Positions 32,645 to 39,957 of a DNA stretch of 64,000 nucleotides are shown here, in pieces; the first letter of the stretch is position 1, and the number at the start of each line of letters is the position of its first letter. A program made the position numbers and the translations under genes. A model generated the notes under the pieces. That model did no database searches and was not told where the DNA came from. It was given only the letters and a program-made list of their open reading frames with translations. The DNA lies in assembly GCA_026708325.1 (NCBI GenBank), contig JAPOVC010000016.1:62001-126000 (forward strand). The letters run 5' to 3'. Source of the stretch: Anaerolineaceae bacterium (GTDB lineage: Bacteria; Chloroflexota; Anaerolineae; Aggregatilineales; Phototrophicaceae).

Positions 32645-34036
32645 ATGCGTTTTCGATTGACTGGCCCTGCATTGATCCTGCTGACGCTCGCGCTGCTGCT
32701 CGCGGCGTCGGCGACGCCGGTCGCGGCGCAGACACCCTGCGACAGCCACGCCGGCCGGCTCGCTGACATGAACAGCCGCGAGGAACTGAAGGCCTTCGTC
32801 CATTGCGCCGCCGCCCACGTCGACATGGTCGGCTGGGAGCAGGCCGCACAGGACTTCGGGGGCGACCAGTGGCTGGACGGCCCGATTTACCTCTTCGCCA
32901 GCACCCTGGACGGGACCACGCTCTTCAGCCCCGGCACGGACGCCAACCCGGGCGACAGCCTGTGGGAGTTGCGCGATTCGGACGGCGTCGCCGTGGTGCA
33001 GGAACAGGCCCGCATCGCGCGTGATTTCGGCGGCGGTTACGTCTTTTACCGCCTCGAAAACATCGCAAGCGGCGAGGAAGAACCCAAGCTCTCCTATGTC
33101 CTGCAGCTGGACTACCGGGGAGAGCCGGCTTTCATCGGCGCCGGCCTGCATCCGCAGGACACGCACGGCACCTGCCCGGCCGATACGGTGCGCGCCTCCC
33201 TCGTCTACAACGAACAGGACATCGAGACCTTCGTCGAATGCGCCGCCCATCACCTGCAGCGGAACGGACTGCAGGCCCTGCATGACTTCAACAGCGACCC
33301 ACGCTGGGTCTCCGGCCCCAGCTACCTCTTTTTCTACGATCTGGAGAGCGCCTTCGCCGTGCTCAACGCCGGCCAGCCGCACCTCGTCGGCACGGACCGC
33401 AGTGGCTCCACCGACCCGGATGGCGTGAAGATCACCCAGGAGATACTGCGTATCCTGCGCAGCCACGATGACGGCTACGTCTATTATCGCTTCCGCAACC
33501 CGGCCACCGACGAGGAAGGGCGCAAGATCACCTACGCCCGCCGCGTCCTCGTGGGCGGCCACGAATACCTCCTCGCCGCCGGCCTCTACGTTCCCTCGCT
33601 GGAGTGCAACGCCCTGCCCCTGGCGCGCGACATCAACACCCGCGAGGAGTTGCAACTCTACGTGCGCTGCGGCGTGGAACTTCTGGAGGAACGCGGCGAC
33701 CTGGCCTTCGACCTCTTCCGCCATCACCCGCAGTGGATCGGCGGCTCTTCCTATCTCTTCGTTTCGGGCTCGGACTGCCGCAACATCTTCTACCATCTGG
33801 ACTACCTCTACGATGAATCCCAGACCTGCGACCTGGTCGACTCCGCCGGCAACCTGGTGAACCAGGACGTCCTCGACATGTCGACCAGCGAGGCCGGCGA
33901 GGGCTGGGTCGATTACGTCTGGCTGAACCCGGCCAGCGAAACGCTCGAGACCAAGAGTTCCTACATCATCGGTTCGACGCTCAATGGCGAACACGTCTCG
34001 GTCGGGGCCGGCCTCTACGAATCGGAACTGCAGTAA
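32645..34036 (+). CDS. Secreted triple-Cache protein 1 of 5
   Basis: A 463-residue exported protein. The ATG at 32645 opens a signal peptide cleaved near TPVAAQ/TPC; the upstream in-frame extension is not used. The mature chain holds three consecutive units of 135-150 residues, each with the sCache_2 pattern: helix with FVxCA, W.dGp.YLF, a loop, DSDG or DPDG, GGYVFYRLEN or DGYVYYRFRNP, a K.sYv strand and a closing GAGLY-like strand. Each unit begins with Cys paired to a second Cys about 22 residues on; unit 3 adds two more. Cache domains normally bind small ligands outside the cell in chemoreceptors and kinases; here no membrane helix or signalling domain follows. Most divergent of the five in unit 3. 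Confidence 0.8.
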   Translation: MRFRLTGPALILLTLALLLAASATPVAAQTPCDSHAGRLADMNSREELKAFVHCAAAHVDMVGWEQAAQDFGGDQWLDGPIYLFASTLDGTTLFSPGTDANPGDSLWELRDSDGVAVVQEQARIARDFGGGYVFYRLENIASGEEEPKLSYVLQLDYRGEPAFIGAGLHPQDTHGTCPADTVRASLVYNEQDIETFVECAAHHLQRNGLQALHDFNSDPRWVSGPSYLFFYDLESAFAVLNAGQPHLVGTDRSGSTDPDGVKITQEILRILRSHDDGYVYYRFRNPATDEEGRKITYARRVLVGGHEYLLAAGLYVPSLECNALPLARDINTREELQLYVRCGVELLEERGDLAFDLFRHHPQWIGGSSYLFVSGSDCRNIFYHLDYLYDESQTCDLVDSAGNLVNQDVLDMSTSEAGEGWVDYVWLNPASETLETKSSYIIGSTLNGEHVSVGAGLYESELQ

Positions 34037-34050
34037 CGACTTCTGCGGAT

Positions 34051-34088
34051 CGCTCCCGCCCGCCCTGCCCTGGCGCAGGCCGGGAGCG
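34051..34088 (+). other. Inverted repeat between array genes 1 and 2
   Basis: CGCTCCCG (34051-34058) pairs with CGGGAGCG (34081-34088) around a 22-nt loop, followed by GTCCCTTTC. It could attenuate transcription or stabilise the upstream message; there is no proper T-tract. Confidence 0.35.
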
Positions 34089-34119
34089 GTCCCTTTCATA
34101 TCCCGCAGAGGAGAGAGCG

Positions 34120-35529
34120 ATGCCATTTCATCCACGCGGTCAGGGGCTGGCCGCAGCCCTGATCACCCTTGCGCTGCTTTCCTTGACTCTGCTGACCGCC
34201 CCGGTCGCCGCGCAGACGCCCTGCGACGACCATGCGGGGCGACTGGCCGACATCCACACCCGCGAGCAACTGAAGGCCTACGTCCACTGCGCCGCCGAAC
34301 ACATTGAGGCCGTCGGCCATGAGCAGGCCTTCCAGGATTTCAGCGGAGGCGCCTGGCACGATGGCCCCATGGCGCTCTTCGCCGCGACGATCGACGGCGA
34401 GCACCTCTTTGCGTATGGTGTGGACATACCCCCCGGCAGTGACCTGTCGGAATGGCGCGATTCGGAGGGTACGCCCATCGTGCAGCAGCAGGCCCGCATC
34501 GCGCGCGACTTCGGCGCCGGCTTCGTTTATTACCGCATCGAAAACATCGCCAGCGGACTGGAAGAACCCAAGGAGTCCTACGTCCTGCGGCTGGACTACC
34601 AGGGCGTGCCGGCCTTCATCGGCGCCGGCCTGCATGCGCAGGACACGCGGGCCACCTGCTCGCCGGAGGTCGTGCGCGCCTCACTCGTCTACAGCGAACG
34701 CGACGTCGAGGCCTTCGTGACCTGTGCCGCGCATTACCTGCAGCAGAACGGCCTGCAGGCCCTGCACGATTTCAACAGCGACCCGCGCTGGATCGCCGGT
34801 CCCACCTACCTCATCCTGCTGGACATGGAGAGCCTCGTCGCGGTGGTTGCCGCCGGACAGCCACACCTGGTCGGCGTGGATGGCAGTGAATTTCGCGATA
34901 TGGACGATGTGCAATTCGCAAGGGAGAAGCAGCGCATCCTGGCCACCCACGACGATGGCTACGTCTATTACCGCTTCAGAAACCCGGCCAGCGGCGAAGT
35001 GGAGCCCAAGGCAACCTACCTGCGCCGGGTGCTGATCGACGGCCACGCCTACATCCTCGGCGCCGGCCTCTACGTCCCCGCCGCCGGGTGCCGCAGTCTG
35101 CCGCTTGCGCGTGAGATCGTCACGCGCGACGAGTTGCAACTGTTTGTGCGTTGCGCCGCGCGGCTGGTCGAGGAACGCGGCGAACTGGCCTGGGACCTCT
35201 TCCTCAACCACCCGCAATGGATCGGCGGGGCGACCTACATCTTCGTGCTGGACGAGCTCTGCCGCCAGCTGGTCTACCCGCTCGACTATGAGCGCGCGGA
35301 GGGCGATGAACCGCGTTGCGACCTCAGGGACGCCGAGGGCACCCCGTTGAACCAAAACGTCCTTGATACGGTGCGCAGCGAGGCAGGCGAGGGCTGGGTC
35401 GAGTACGTCTGGCTGAACCCGGCCAATGACAAGGTCGAGGCCAAACACGCCTTCGTCGTCGGCGAGACACTCGACGGCGAACACGTTTCGATCGGCGCCG
35501 GACTTTACGAATCGCAATTGCAGGGGTAA
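34120..35529 (+). CDS. Secreted triple-Cache protein 2 of 5
   Basis: A 469-residue paralogue with signal peptide (LITLALLSLTLLTAPVAAQ) and AGAGGAGAG before the ATG. Units begin at CDDHAGRLADIHTREQ, CSPEVVRASLVYSERD and CRSLPLAREIVTRDEL, and close with FIGAGLHAQD, ILGAGLYVPA and SIGAGLYESQ. Signature strands include AGFVYYRIEN, DGYVYYRFRNP and GWVEYVWLNP. The gene starts 83 bp after gene 1. Unit 3 is close to those of genes 3 and 5 (QWIGGATYIFVLDELCRQLV), pointing to recent duplication or conversion. The GW residue of the first helix is GH here (AVGHEQAFQDF). Ligand unknown. Confidence 0.8.
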   Translation: MPFHPRGQGLAAALITLALLSLTLLTAPVAAQTPCDDHAGRLADIHTREQLKAYVHCAAEHIEAVGHEQAFQDFSGGAWHDGPMALFAATIDGEHLFAYGVDIPPGSDLSEWRDSEGTPIVQQQARIARDFGAGFVYYRIENIASGLEEPKESYVLRLDYQGVPAFIGAGLHAQDTRATCSPEVVRASLVYSERDVEAFVTCAAHYLQQNGLQALHDFNSDPRWIAGPTYLILLDMESLVAVVAAGQPHLVGVDGSEFRDMDDVQFAREKQRILATHDDGYVYYRFRNPASGEVEPKATYLRRVLIDGHAYILGAGLYVPAAGCRSLPLAREIVTRDELQLFVRCAARLVEERGELAWDLFLNHPQWIGGATYIFVLDELCRQLVYPLDYERAEGDEPRCDLRDAEGTPLNQNVLDTVRSEAGEGWVEYVWLNPANDKVEAKHAFVVGETLDGEHVSIGAGLYESQLQG

Positions 35530-35601
35530 GCCCGTTTCGCTGCCGTTTCCATATCCATGGCAGCGACGGGCGCCGGTTGGCGGACCACCAGGGAGGGTCT
35601 C

Positions 35602-37005
35602 ATGATTTTCGGAAAACCACGACAGTTCCTGCTCTTTGCGGCGTTGACCCTGCTGCTGTCGCTGCTGGCCGCGCCGGTCGCGGCGCAAACGCCCTGCGAC
35701 AGCAACGAGGGGCGCCTCGCCGACATCCACAGCCGTGAGCAACTGAAGGCCTACGTCCACTGCGCCGCCCAACACATTGAGGCCGTCGGCTGGGAACAGG
35801 CGGCGCAGGACTTCGAGACCAGCGCCTGGATGGATGGAGACGTCTATCTCTTCGCCGGCACGCTGCAAGGCGACATTTTCTTCGTGGCCGGCTCGGGTTT
35901 GGCCGCCGGGACCAATCTGTGGGACCTGCAGGATTCGGAGGGCGTGTGGTCCACGCGTGAACTGGCCCGCATCGCCAGCGACTTTGGCGAGGGCTTCGCG
36001 TACTACCGCTTCACAAGCCGCGAAACGGGTCGCGACGAGCCCAAGCTGAGCTACATCATGACGCTGGAGCGTGATGGCGAGCCGGCGGGACTGGGCGCGG
36101 GCTATCATCCGCGGGACACCCATGGCAGTTGCTCGCCAGAGGTGGTGCGCGCCTCACTGGTCTACACCGAACGCGACGTCGAACGCTTCGTCACCTGCGC
36201 CGAACACCATCTGCGGCAACGGGGCCTGCAGGCGATCCACGAATTCAACACGGACCCGCGCTGGAAGGCCGGCCCCACCTATCTCTTCCTCTTTGACCTC
36301 GAGGAGCTCTTCACCCTGGTCAATGCCGGACAGCCGCAACTGGTGGGCACCGTTCGCGATGCCGCTGCCTATGCGCCAGACCAGGTGCCGGGTGCGCCCG
36401 AAACGCGGCGCATCCTCGCCAGCCACGACGATGGCTACGTCTACTACACCTTCCGCAACCCGGCGACGGAAGAGGAAGGACGCAAGATTGCCTATTTCCG
36501 TCGCCTCCTGCTTGACGGACGTTCCTATTACATTGGTTCCGGCCTCTACGTCCCCGCCGACGACTGCCGCAATCTGCCCCTGGCGCGCGACATCGACACC
36601 CGTGACGAAATGCAACAGTACGTTCGCTGCGCCCAGGACCTGGTCGACGAGCGCGGCGACCTGGCCTGGGACCTCTTCCTCAATCACCCGCAGTGGATCG
36701 GCGGCTCGGCCTACATCTTCGTCCTGGACGAGCTCTGCCGCCAGCTGGTCTACCCGCTCGACTACGAACGCCAGCAGGGCGATGAACCGCGTTGTGACCT
36801 AAGGGACGCCGCGGGCAACCTGCCAAACCAGGACATCCTCGCGACGGCCCGCAGTGAAGTCGGTGAGGGCTGGGTCGAGTACCTCTGGCTGAACCCCGCC
36901 AGTGACGAGGTAGAGACCAAACACTCCTTCATCGTCGGCGGCACGCTCAACGGGGAACATGTTTCCATTGGCGCCGGCCTCTACGAATCGCAAATGCAAT
37001 CGTAG
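35602..37005 (+). CDS. Secreted triple-Cache protein 3 of 5
   Basis: A 467-residue paralogue; the ATG at 35602 follows GGGAGGG and opens a signal peptide (LTLLLSLLAAPVAAQ). Units start at CDSNEGRLADIHSREQ, CSPEVVRASLVYTERD and CRNLPLARDIDTRDEM. Cache strands are GFAYYRFTS, DGYVYYTFRNP and GWVEYLWLNP. The 72-bp spacer from gene 2 resembles that before gene 5 (GATCCATGGCA-like block and GACGGGCGCCGG), so duplicated units carried their leader. Unit 3 contains QWIGGSAYIFVLDELCRQLV, almost the same as in genes 2 and 5. Confidence 0.8.
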   Translation: MIFGKPRQFLLFAALTLLLSLLAAPVAAQTPCDSNEGRLADIHSREQLKAYVHCAAQHIEAVGWEQAAQDFETSAWMDGDVYLFAGTLQGDIFFVAGSGLAAGTNLWDLQDSEGVWSTRELARIASDFGEGFAYYRFTSRETGRDEPKLSYIMTLERDGEPAGLGAGYHPRDTHGSCSPEVVRASLVYTERDVERFVTCAEHHLRQRGLQAIHEFNTDPRWKAGPTYLFLFDLEELFTLVNAGQPQLVGTVRDAAAYAPDQVPGAPETRRILASHDDGYVYYTFRNPATEEEGRKIAYFRRLLLDGRSYYIGSGLYVPADDCRNLPLARDIDTRDEMQQYVRCAQDLVDERGDLAWDLFLNHPQWIGGSAYIFVLDELCRQLVYPLDYERQQGDEPRCDLRDAAGNLPNQDILATARSEVGEGWVEYLWLNPASDEVETKHSFIVGGTLNGEHVSIGAGLYESQMQS

Positions 37006-37054
37006 CAGCGTCTCCGTTGTGGATACGCCGTGACCGAACGCGGCAATGGCGACG

Positions 37055-37072
37055 TGCCCGCCTGACCGGGCA
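37055..37072 (+). promoter_or_regulatory. Hairpin abutting the ribosome site of array gene 4
   Basis: TGCCCG-cctgac-CGGGCA forms a 6-bp stem ending directly at the GGGAGGG Shine-Dalgarno (37073-37079). A similar hairpin precedes gene 5. It may tune translation of individual array members. Confidence 0.35.
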
Positions 37073-37082
37073 GGGAGGGACA

Positions 37083-38477
37083 ATGCGAAGTCGACATCCA
37101 CACCTTTGTCTGGTCGCTGTCGGGCTGGCCATGCTGCTGATCCTGCTGGCCGCGCCGGTCGCGGCGCAGACGCCCTGCAACAGCCATGGGGGCCGCCTGG
37201 CCGATATCCACAGCCGCCAGCAACTGAAAGCATTCGTCAACTGCGCCGCCGAACACATTGGGGCCGTCGGCTGGGCACAGGCCGCGCAGGACTTCGAGAC
37301 CGCCGCCTGGCGCGACGGACCTGTTTACCTCTTCGCGGGCACCGGGGAGGGGAAAATCATCCTCGTGGCCGGTGTCGACGTTGAACCGGGCGCGGATGTG
37401 CTGGACAGGGTGGACTCTGATGGCGCCCACGTATCGCATCAACATCTGCGCGTATTGCGTGATTTCGGGAGCGGCTATGTCTATTACCGCTTCAACAACC
37501 CGGTCAGCGGCGAGACGGAACCCAAGGTGACCTGGATCACCCGGGTGGAGTATGAGGGGGAACCTGCCTACATCGGCGCCGGTTACTACCCGACGGATAC
37601 GCACGCCAGCTGTTCACCGGACCTGGTGCGCGCCTCGCTGGTCTTCAGCGAACGCGACGTCGAGCGCTTCGTGGCCTGCGCCGAACGCCATCTGCAACAA
37701 CGGGGCCTGCAGGCCCTGCACGACTTCAACACGAACCCGCGCTGGATCTCCGGCCCCACCTACCTCTTCCTCGGTGACATGGAGAGCGCTTTCGCCGTCG
37801 TCAACGCCGGCCAACCCCATCGCGTCGGCACCGACGGCTCTCTCCTGGTCGGCCCCGACGGGGTTAACGTCGGCCTGGAAACCCAGCGTGTCCTCAACAC
37901 TCACGACGACGGTTACGTCTACTATTCCTTCCCCAACCCCGCCACCGGCGAACCCGGCTACAAGGGCTCATATGTCCGCCGTATTCTGCTGGACGGGCGC
38001 GCCTACGTCCTCGGCGCCGGCCTCTACGTCCCCGCCGCGGAGTGCCGCCACCTGCCGCCGGCGCGCGACATTGACACTCGTGACGCAATGCAACAGTTCG
38101 TGCGCTGCGCCAAAGATTTGGTCGAGGAACGCGGCGAAGCGGCATGGGACCTCTTCCTCAACCACCCGCAGTGGATCGGCGGGGCGACCTACCTCTTCGT
38201 GCTGGACGAGAATTGCGATTATCTCGCCGCTCCCGTCTACCCGGCTGGCGTGAACAACGGACAATGTGACTTTGTCGACGTGGAGGGCACTCCGGTCGAT
38301 CAGGAAATCCGCGCCCGGGTCACCAGCGCGGAAGGCGAGGGCTGGGTCAGCTATGTGCTGCGCAACCCGCTCAACGGCGAAGTCGAGGGCAAGGAAAGCT
38401 ACGTGGTCGGGGTGACGCTCAACGACCAGCTGATCTCCGTGGCCGCCGGACTCTACGAATCGCAAATGCAGGGGTAA
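37083..38477 (+). CDS. Secreted triple-Cache protein 4 of 5
   Basis: A 464-residue paralogue from the ATG at 37083 with a strong GGGAGGG site. Signal peptide: LVAVGLAMLLILLAAPVAAQ. Units start at CNSHGGRLADIHSRQQ, CSPDLVRASLVFSERD and CRHLPPARDIDTRDAM. The third unit is distinct: VLDENCDYLAAPVYPAG replaces the DELCRQLVYPLDYER segment of genes 2, 3 and 5 while keeping the extra Cys pair (ENC and GQCDF). Closing strands are YIGAGYYPTD, VLGAGLYVPA and SVAAGLYESQ. Divergence around the loop expected to line the Cache pocket suggests a different ligand. Confidence 0.8.
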   Translation: MRSRHPHLCLVAVGLAMLLILLAAPVAAQTPCNSHGGRLADIHSRQQLKAFVNCAAEHIGAVGWAQAAQDFETAAWRDGPVYLFAGTGEGKIILVAGVDVEPGADVLDRVDSDGAHVSHQHLRVLRDFGSGYVYYRFNNPVSGETEPKVTWITRVEYEGEPAYIGAGYYPTDTHASCSPDLVRASLVFSERDVERFVACAERHLQQRGLQALHDFNTNPRWISGPTYLFLGDMESAFAVVNAGQPHRVGTDGSLLVGPDGVNVGLETQRVLNTHDDGYVYYSFPNPATGEPGYKGSYVRRILLDGRAYVLGAGLYVPAAECRHLPPARDIDTRDAMQQFVRCAKDLVEERGEAAWDLFLNHPQWIGGATYLFVLDENCDYLAAPVYPAGVNNGQCDFVDVEGTPVDQEIRARVTSAEGEGWVSYVLRNPLNGEVEGKESYVVGVTLNDQLISVAAGLYESQMQG

Positions 38478-38520
38478 GCCCGATACGCTGTTGTGTCCCG
38501 ATCCATGGCAACGACGGGCG

Positions 38521-38537
38521 CCGGTCCCGCAGACCGG
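38521..38537 (+). promoter_or_regulatory. Hairpin just before the ribosome site of array gene 5
   Basis: CCGGTC-ccgca-GACCGG is a 6-bp stem with a 5-nt loop, two bases before the GGGAGGG site (38540-38546). Confidence 0.35.
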
Positions 38538-38550
38538 CAGGGAGGGTTAC

Positions 38551-39957
38551 ATGTTTCACGGTATTGCAAAACGGTTCCTGTTCATTCTGGCGCCGGCCAT
38601 GCTGCTGTCGCTGCTGGCCGCGCCGGTCGCGGCGCAGACGCCCTGCGACAGCCACGCCGGCCGTCTGGCCGATATCCACAGCCGCCAGCAACTGAAACAA
38701 TTCGTCAACTGCGCCGCCGAACACATTGAGGCCGTCGGCTGGGAACAGGCCGCGCAGGACTTCGAGACCAGCGCCTGGTGGGAGCACCCGGTCTACATTT
38801 TCGCCACCAGGGCGGACGGGACAGCCCTGCTCAGCCCGGGTTCGGACATCGCCCCCGGCGACAATCTGTGGGACTGGCAGGACCCGGACGGCGTCTACCC
38901 CTCGCGGGAGCAGGTGCGCGTGACCCGCGACTTCGGCGAGGGCTACGTCTACCTGCGCTTCATCAATCCGGACAGCGGCCGCGAAGACCCGCTGGAGACC
39001 TGGGTCCGGCTGGTTGACTATCAGGGCGAGGCGGCCTATCTGGGCGCCGCGATCTATCCCCAGGACACGCACGGCACCTGCTCGCCGGAGGTGGTGCGCG
39101 CCTCGCTGGTCTACAACGAGCGCGACGCCGAGCAATTCGTGGCCTGCGCAGCCCATCACCTGCAGCAGAACGGCCTGCAGGCCCTGAACGACTTCTCCAG
39201 CGACCCGCGCTGGATCTCCGGCCCCACCTATCTCTTCCTCGGTGACCTGGTGACCCTCTATCAGGTCGCCAACGCCGGCCAACCGCATCTCACCGGAACT
39301 GACGGCTCCCTCCTTGTTGATTCGGACGGCGTACGCATCGGCCTGGAAATCCAGCGGGTCCTCAGCACGCATGACGACGGCTACGTCTATTACACCTTCC
39401 GCAACCCCGCCACCGACGAGGCCAGCCACAAGGCTTCCCATGTCCGTCGCGTCCTGCTGGACGGCCGTCCCTACGTCCTCGGCACCGGCCTATACGTCCC
39501 CTCTGCCGAATGCCGCAACCTGCCGCTGGCGCGCGACATCGACAACCGTGACGAACTGCAGCAGTACGTGCGCTGCGCCAGGGACCTGGTCGACGAGCGC
39601 GGCGAACTGGCCTGGGACCTTTTCCTCAACCATCCGCAGTGGATCGGCGGCCCGGTCTACATCTTCGTGAATGACGAGCAGTGCCGCCAGCTGGTCTACC
39701 CGCTCGACTACGAACGCCAGCAGGGCGATGCATCGCGTTGCGACCTCAGGGACGCCGAGGGCACCCTGCTGAACCAGGATTTGCTTGACATGTCTCGCAG
39801 CGAGGCCGGCGAAGGCTGGGTGCGCTATCTCTGGCTGAACCCGGCCAGTGACGAGGTCGAGGCCAAGCACTCCTTCGTCGTCGGCGGGACGCTCGACGGC
39901 GAACACGTCTACATCGGCGCCGGCCTCTACGAATCAGAAATGCAGCAGGACGGTTAA
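38551..39957 (+). CDS. Secreted triple-Cache protein 5 of 5
   Basis: A 468-residue paralogue from the ATG at 38551. Signal peptide: LAPAMLLSLLAAPVAAQ. Units start at CDSHAGRLADIHSRQQ, CSPEVVRASLVYNERD and CRNLPLARDIDNRDEL. The first unit differs around its pocket (WWEHPVYIFATRADG, GYVYLRFINPDSG); units 2 and 3 (YVYYTFRNPATDEA, VNDEQCRQLVYPLDYER) stay close to genes 3 and 4. It is the last gene of the array and is followed by a strong hairpin. All five share the exact junction APVAAQTPC, so the same export route and N-terminal disulfide are likely. Confidence 0.8.
   Translation: MFHGIAKRFLFILAPAMLLSLLAAPVAAQTPCDSHAGRLADIHSRQQLKQFVNCAAEHIEAVGWEQAAQDFETSAWWEHPVYIFATRADGTALLSPGSDIAPGDNLWDWQDPDGVYPSREQVRVTRDFGEGYVYLRFINPDSGREDPLETWVRLVDYQGEAAYLGAAIYPQDTHGTCSPEVVRASLVYNERDAEQFVACAAHHLQQNGLQALNDFSSDPRWISGPTYLFLGDLVTLYQVANAGQPHLTGTDGSLLVDSDGVRIGLEIQRVLSTHDDGYVYYTFRNPATDEASHKASHVRRVLLDGRPYVLGTGLYVPSAECRNLPLARDIDNRDELQQYVRCARDLVDERGELAWDLFLNHPQWIGGPVYIFVNDEQCRQLVYPLDYERQQGDASRCDLRDAEGTLLNQDLLDMSRSEAGEGWVRYLWLNPASDEVEAKHSFVVGGTLDGEHVYIGAGLYESEMQQDG

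Follow-up and report, generated by a model that had tools for sequence, protein, structure and literature searches.

A five-gene array of secreted triple-Cache proteins in a Chloroflexota genome, with putative short-carboxylate pockets and apparent unit exchange between paralogues

The stretch of DNA analysed here (64,000 nucleotides of contig JAPOVC010000016.1 from an Anaerolineaceae bacterium, referred to as the window) carries five head-to-tail genes on the + strand (32645–39957) whose products, W1 to W5, are 463, 469, 467, 464 and 468 aa long and consist of a Sec signal peptide followed by three Cache units. The explanation we prefer, to which we give about even odds, is that the array encodes secreted multi-pocket binders of short carboxylates for capture or buffering, diversified by duplication, decay and recombination of units.

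Organization of the array

The initial annotation had described a tandem array of five genes encoding 463–469 residues each, and this was confirmed by the open reading frames and by Pfam matches on all five products. W2 to W5 share 55–64% identity with W1, and the dN/dS of the array genes against their orthologues (0.16–0.37) indicates purifying selection and hence genuine genes. The host genome comprises 3.3 Mb in 29 contigs, and the array is its sole sCache_2 match.

All five genes were delimited from the ORF, Pfam and hydropathy, supplemented by the clamp residues described below for W2 and W5 and by a structure model for W3, while the signal peptides were placed from sequence and hydropathy. 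W1 (32645–34036) has its signal peptide at 32645–32728, with a putative cleavage site between VAA and QTPC, and its units 1, 2 and 3 at 32738–33172, 33173–33604 and 33605–34033 (Pfam, alignment and clamp residues), the third with an extra cysteine pair. W2 (34120–35529; signal peptide 34120–34212) contains unit 1 at 34222–34656, placed from the clamp residues and with a degenerate clamp, and units 2 and 3 at 34657–35088 and 35089–35526, for which Pfam was also used. The units of W3 (35602–37005; signal peptide 35602–35685), at 35695–36129, 36130–36564 and 36565–37002, were placed by unit identity and clamp residues. Clamp residues located those of W4 (37083–38477; signal peptide 37083–37166) at 37176–37610, 37611–38042 and 38043–38474, and those of W5 (38551–39957; signal peptide 38551–38634) at 38644–39078, again with a degenerate clamp, 39079–39510 and 39511–39954. 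In an upstream alignment a purine-rich, ribosome-binding-like stretch (AGGGAGGG-type) precedes each gene, less clearly at W1 and W2, and no sigma-70 promoters or terminators common to the genes were found above chance inside the array.

Domain content and predicted fold

Profile searches bore out the proposal of three sCache_2 units per chain. The sCache_2 profile (PF17200) matches all five proteins (E 4e-26 to 3e-19; 70–92 bits against a cut-off of 25 bits), as does dCache_2 (PF08269; E 2e-28 to 2e-16), generally in three stretches per protein; in W3 there are two sCache_2 and three dCache_2 stretches, and all three units are evident from the latter together with the alignment. No other Pfam domain reached its cut-off in the five proteins. 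The nearest NCBIfam models, an MctS-type histidine kinase (NF052443; 77 bits against a cut-off of 700) and the CtpM malate chemoreceptor (NF058645; 38 against 900), were matched weakly and in their Cache parts. The expectation that the proteins have no signalling domain thus held, as both Pfam and NCBIfam find Cache parts only.

Mature W3 was modelled with AlphaFold2 using an input of this sequence and ten homologues, giving a model of moderate confidence (pLDDT 72, pTM 0.64) in which a long helix leads into a strand/helix/three-strand unit in each of three repeats. When single units of the model were submitted to Foldseek, sCache_2 domains were matched (4EXO and 2QHK with TM 0.70, 4K08 with TM 0.64, both by target length), the whole chain matched multi-PAS proteins, and a profile search of PDB sequences returned the same sCache_2 receptors. 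The long N-terminal helix and PAS-like sheet anticipated for each unit are therefore present in this model, which supports a Cache fold for each unit.

Cache domains usually belong to receptors, and one could suppose that gene calling or assembly overlooked the membrane and output parts of what are ordinary Cache receptors. However, all five frames stop directly after unit 3, an arrangement found across three species and also in another Anaerolineae family, and no output domain lies downstream; the conserved stop codons refute this explanation, which we judge extremely improbable.

Secretion and cysteines

All five proteins have a hydrophobic N-terminus ending in PVAAQTPC, and no segment past residue 40 resembles a transmembrane helix (maximum Kyte–Doolittle 19-mer ≤1.61), so that the signal peptide without a C-terminal membrane anchor that had been predicted was recovered in the hydropathy of all five chains. 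By their signal peptides the proteins are predicted to be extracellular. Other forms of attachment were considered and rejected: AQTPC is not a lipobox, and a wall anchor is contradicted by the lack of LPXTG and by chains that end directly after unit 3. Each protein has eight conserved cysteines, two per unit and an extra pair in unit 3, a pattern which suggests disulfides. Binding of c-type haem at the helix motif CAAxH was also rejected, since this motif differs from CXXCH.

Ligand-binding residues

In the receptor PscD, the carboxylate sits between two aromatic residues and is bound by Tyr90, His103, Tyr143 and Lys156 (PMC5062169). Receptors from the gut no longer bind lactate once the equivalent Tyr, Trp, Tyr or Lys is mutated to alanine, and their preference for pyruvate or lactate is governed by the residue at the His position (PMC12415202). 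The Tyr90/Tyr143/Lys156 clamp (PscD numbering) is intact in 13 of the 15 window units, the exceptions being unit 1 of W2, with Tyr90 replaced by Ala, and unit 1 of W5, with both Tyr143 and Lys156 replaced by Leu. The residue at the His103 position of the window proteins varies, with Ser, Ala or Val in the first unit, Asn or Ala in the second and Tyr or Ala in the third. The clamp is similarly retained in relatives, being intact in 15/18 units of the sister genomes, 18/20 of genus g291, 17/17 of g365 and 73/86 units from other classes.

Because the clamp residues are conserved, binding of short carboxylates is the likely biochemical function of the units, with preferences that would differ between them. 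Most units would use Tyr/Tyr/Lys to bind one short-chain carboxylate each, of the acetate, pyruvate, lactate or propionate class, with the ligand preference set by the His103-equivalent position and the neighbouring loop. Profiles, fold and clamp together support the earlier description of Cache domains that are free, stacked and amplified and that probably contain ligand pockets. Against a binding role it could be argued that the clamp residues are partly inherited structure and that two units have lost them. The reported affinities of sCache_2 domains, of the order of tens to hundreds of µM (23–356 µM for PscD; PMC5062169), are weak and count against scavenging of trace ligands; they suit buffering or sensing better.

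Relatives in Chloroflexota

In a scan of a one-genome-per-species collection, the close relatives were two MAGs of the same genus as the window, Anaerolineae bacterium 277c_24 and Anaerolineaceae bacterium RHO3_bin_8. The former comes from specimen 277c of the sponge Petrosia ficiformis (PMC8941161), RHO3 in the name of the latter may refer to the sponge Rhopaloeides, and the window bacterium is probably sponge-associated. The copy number differs among the three: the window has five genes, RHO3 has two, and 277c has four together with one that has decayed. In the decayed copy (L009:2363–3232), unit 1 is of the W1 type and interrupted by a stop codon, unit 2 is W3/R1-like, and unit 3 is missing. 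No orthologue of unit 1 of W3 was found in the two sister genomes, and no array was found among the other genera searched of the same GTDB family.

A class-wide scan detected the triple protein at full length (E about 1e-141) in four genomes of genus g291, which belongs to another Anaerolineae family and has up to three copies as well as decayed fragments. In the unit tree, units 1, 2 and 3 of most g291 proteins join units 1, 2 and 3 of the window genus, respectively, and because of this grouping by position the arrangement in threes is probably older than the divergence of the two genera. A second, separate clade (100/100; loci L033, L042, L054, L085 and L087) consists of tandem Cache lipoproteins or secreted proteins with one to six units, encoded by g365 and by members of several other families of Chloroflexota. 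Its members usually have His at the His103 position and have no conserved cysteine pairs, several carry a lipobox, no output domain was found in those scanned, and according to the unit tree their units multiply within a single gene. One gene of this kind (L085:10400–13006), from a single-contig genome, encodes a lipoprotein with six Cache units, of which three are almost the same in sequence; it follows a threonyl-tRNA synthetase-like gene and is surrounded by housekeeping genes.

In a relative within the window clade (L032/L088; L088:3694–5550), an SBP_bac_3-like domain, scoring just below the Pfam cut-off (E 2e-5), comes after two Cache units with paired cysteines, and the contig end truncates the protein at its C-terminus. 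The contig L088 is small and may be a contaminant of genome G346. This fusion, and the lipobox in many of the distant tandem-Cache relatives, count in favour of a binding role.

Exchange of units between paralogues

Comparison of the sister species revealed mosaic genes. Protein N3 of 277c has a W4-type unit 1 (81% identity), a W3-type unit 2 (81%) and a W4-type unit 3 (78%), while R2 of RHO3 has a W5-type unit 1 (83%) and a W2-type unit 2 (81%), and sliding nucleotide identity switches in line with these unit types. In AU tests, grouping with W3 was rejected for unit 1 (p=0.001) and unit 3 (p=1.5e-5) of N3, as was grouping of its unit 2 with W4 (p=2e-5); for R2, unit 1 with W2/N2 (p=3e-5) and unit 2 with W5/N4 (p=2e-5) were rejected, and the ancestry of unit 3 gave p values of 0.08 and 0.27. 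The p values are somewhat optimistic, because the groups to be compared were defined with the identity table already at hand. A chimeric assembly could also produce mosaics, but how far the paralogues have diverged (unit identity mostly 50–80%) and the conserved flanks make this less of a concern. From these sequence comparisons, the paralogues appear to exchange whole units, giving genes that are mosaic across sister species.

Between paralogues of the same genome, dN is 0.10–0.20 in the helix part and 0.35–0.50 in the pocket segment, which is about 2–5x higher, and dS is also lower in the helix part. This is as expected if conversion homogenises the helix parts while the pockets stay apart. 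The pocket dN/dS stays <1, and positive selection is thus not demonstrated.

These observations bear on two further explanations. The Cache repeats could be rigid beads of structural or adhesive surface proteins, engaged in cell–cell, matrix or host contact, with the pocket as a relic; a repeat architecture of one to six units across the phylum, the paired cysteines of each unit and a recombination-driven variability like that of surface proteins would all fit. We consider this unlikely, as conservation of the clamp over far-diverged units and two lineages is unexpected for a relic, and the window proteins are without wall-anchoring, adhesive or lipobox motifs. Lower still in our estimate is that the proteins are host-directed factors of a sponge symbiont, binding metabolites of the host or its community and diversified under host contact: the origin of one sister genome (277c) from Petrosia ficiformis (PMC8941161), the variable pockets and the turnover of copies are in keeping with it, but the pocket dN/dS below 1 shows no positive selection.

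Genomic context and possible partners

No MCP domain (PF00015) was found in the window genome or in 16 other Chloroflexota genomes with tandem-Cache proteins (17 genomes in total), and published sponge Chloroflexi genomes are without flagellar and chemotaxis genes (PMC6306507). The initial annotation had raised the possibility of soluble co-receptors handing ligands to a membrane partner. A chemoreceptor is unlikely to be that partner, because the genome has no MCP. Hand-over could still apply to a histidine kinase or a transporter, although no partner emerged in the loci examined: neither a permease nor a transducer is conserved beside the genes, and the window genes have no solute-binding Pfam profile and no cognate permease beside them. 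A conserved neighbour as partner was also rejected, since the flanking genes differ between genera, with an NAD epimerase and a methyltransferase in the window genus, a GH63-like hydrolase, an MFS protein and a Na/Pi cotransporter in g291, and a threonyl-tRNA synthetase-like gene in g365.

Some further genes were noted around the array. An ArsR-type regulator and a SAM methyltransferase, possibly an arsenite methyltransferase, lie convergent with it (window:40012–41060), with a methyltransferase at the same place in L010. Downstream of the array is a small, secreted-looking cytochrome P460-like protein (window:41206–41787), to which a near-identical protein, likewise downstream, corresponds in L010. 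A sulfatase gene is present at window:22526–24010; sponge Anaerolineae and Caldilineae are reported to be rich in arylsulfatases (PMC6306507).

The window genome encodes two membrane histidine kinases with extracytoplasmic regions of roughly 135–160 aa, and there are known cases of receptors stimulated by solute-binding proteins (PMC9602780). The triple-Cache proteins could, on this basis, be soluble co-sensors which, when liganded, dock onto a membrane histidine kinase at its ectodomain and trigger a response to organic acids. This is the foremost of the alternatives and nonetheless improbable, for none of the loci examined has a kinase close to the array, MCPs are absent, and the fast change of copy number and unit content between sister species fits poorly with a fixed docking partner. 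Secreted binders for capture or buffering are favoured because there is no MCP and no array-linked histidine kinase. Under this preferred explanation, the five secreted proteins, each with three ligand-binding sCache_2 units and no transducer, would form a multi-pocket extracellular layer that captures or buffers organic acids for a non-chemotactic bacterium, and tandem duplication, decay and unit-wise recombination between paralogues would diversify the repertoire of pockets. Downstream, the role may be capture, buffering or hand-over of ligand to some partner.

Comparison with known Cache systems

The founding survey of Cache domains found them exclusively with output domains, the SMP_2 family excepted, and held that an extracellular Cache domain signals only via its C-terminal membrane helix (PMC4822843); the window proteins break both rules. 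Cache receptors are further characterised by two flanking transmembrane helices and an output domain (Upadhyay 2016), neither of which is present here. The chemoreceptor sCache_2 domains of PscD (5G4Y/5G4Z), Adeh_3718 (4K08) and V. parahaemolyticus (4EXO) belong to the same Pfam family and share the predicted fold and the Tyr/Tyr/Lys clamp. In these receptors, however, a single domain lies between two membrane helices and is joined to an MCP output, whereas the window proteins are secreted chains of three units with no later membrane helix and no output. MctS and CtpM, the nearest by sequence in NCBIfam (NF052443 and NF058645), likewise have a kinase or MCP part which the window proteins lack.

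Among the Foldseek matches was alpha2-delta. Eukaryotic alpha2-delta and CACHD1 combine dCache_1 with VWA and are membrane-attached channel subunits, not simple Cache repeats. They resemble the window proteins in being extracellular Cache modules without an output domain of their own (CACHD1: PMC6527056). Solute-binding proteins similarly have a secreted or lipid-anchored binding role without a transducer, and L088 fuses two Cache units to a domain of SBP_bac_3 type, but they are two-lobed and of a different fold, and the window genes have no permease partner. Also comparable is the second Chloroflexota tandem-Cache lineage, whose sCache_2 chains are also transducer-less and retain the clamp, although its units form a separate clade.

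Searches of open-licence full text turned up no account of bacterial secreted proteins built from tandem Cache domains, and this, together with the relatives, agrees with the initial view of an amplified and apparently undescribed system. To that view the present analysis adds a wider Chloroflexota family, conservation of the pocket, paired cysteines and the shuffling of units. More tentatively, Chloroflexota may have evolved, at least twice, transducer-independent extracellular strings of Cache units as a secreted or surface repertoire for ligand capture, with new pocket combinations made by recombination of units within tandem arrays. Transducer-less chains with intact clamps in many Chloroflexota suggest that the Cache fold is used in free-standing binding proteins as well. 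The array offers natural single-chain, multi-pocket candidate carboxylate binders for ligand tests, and would illustrate how the binding repertoire of a bacterium, in at least one case a sponge symbiont, changes as units are shuffled. Compared with the known systems, the fold and the pocket are familiar, and the free multi-unit secreted arrangement and the apparent shuffling of its units are new.
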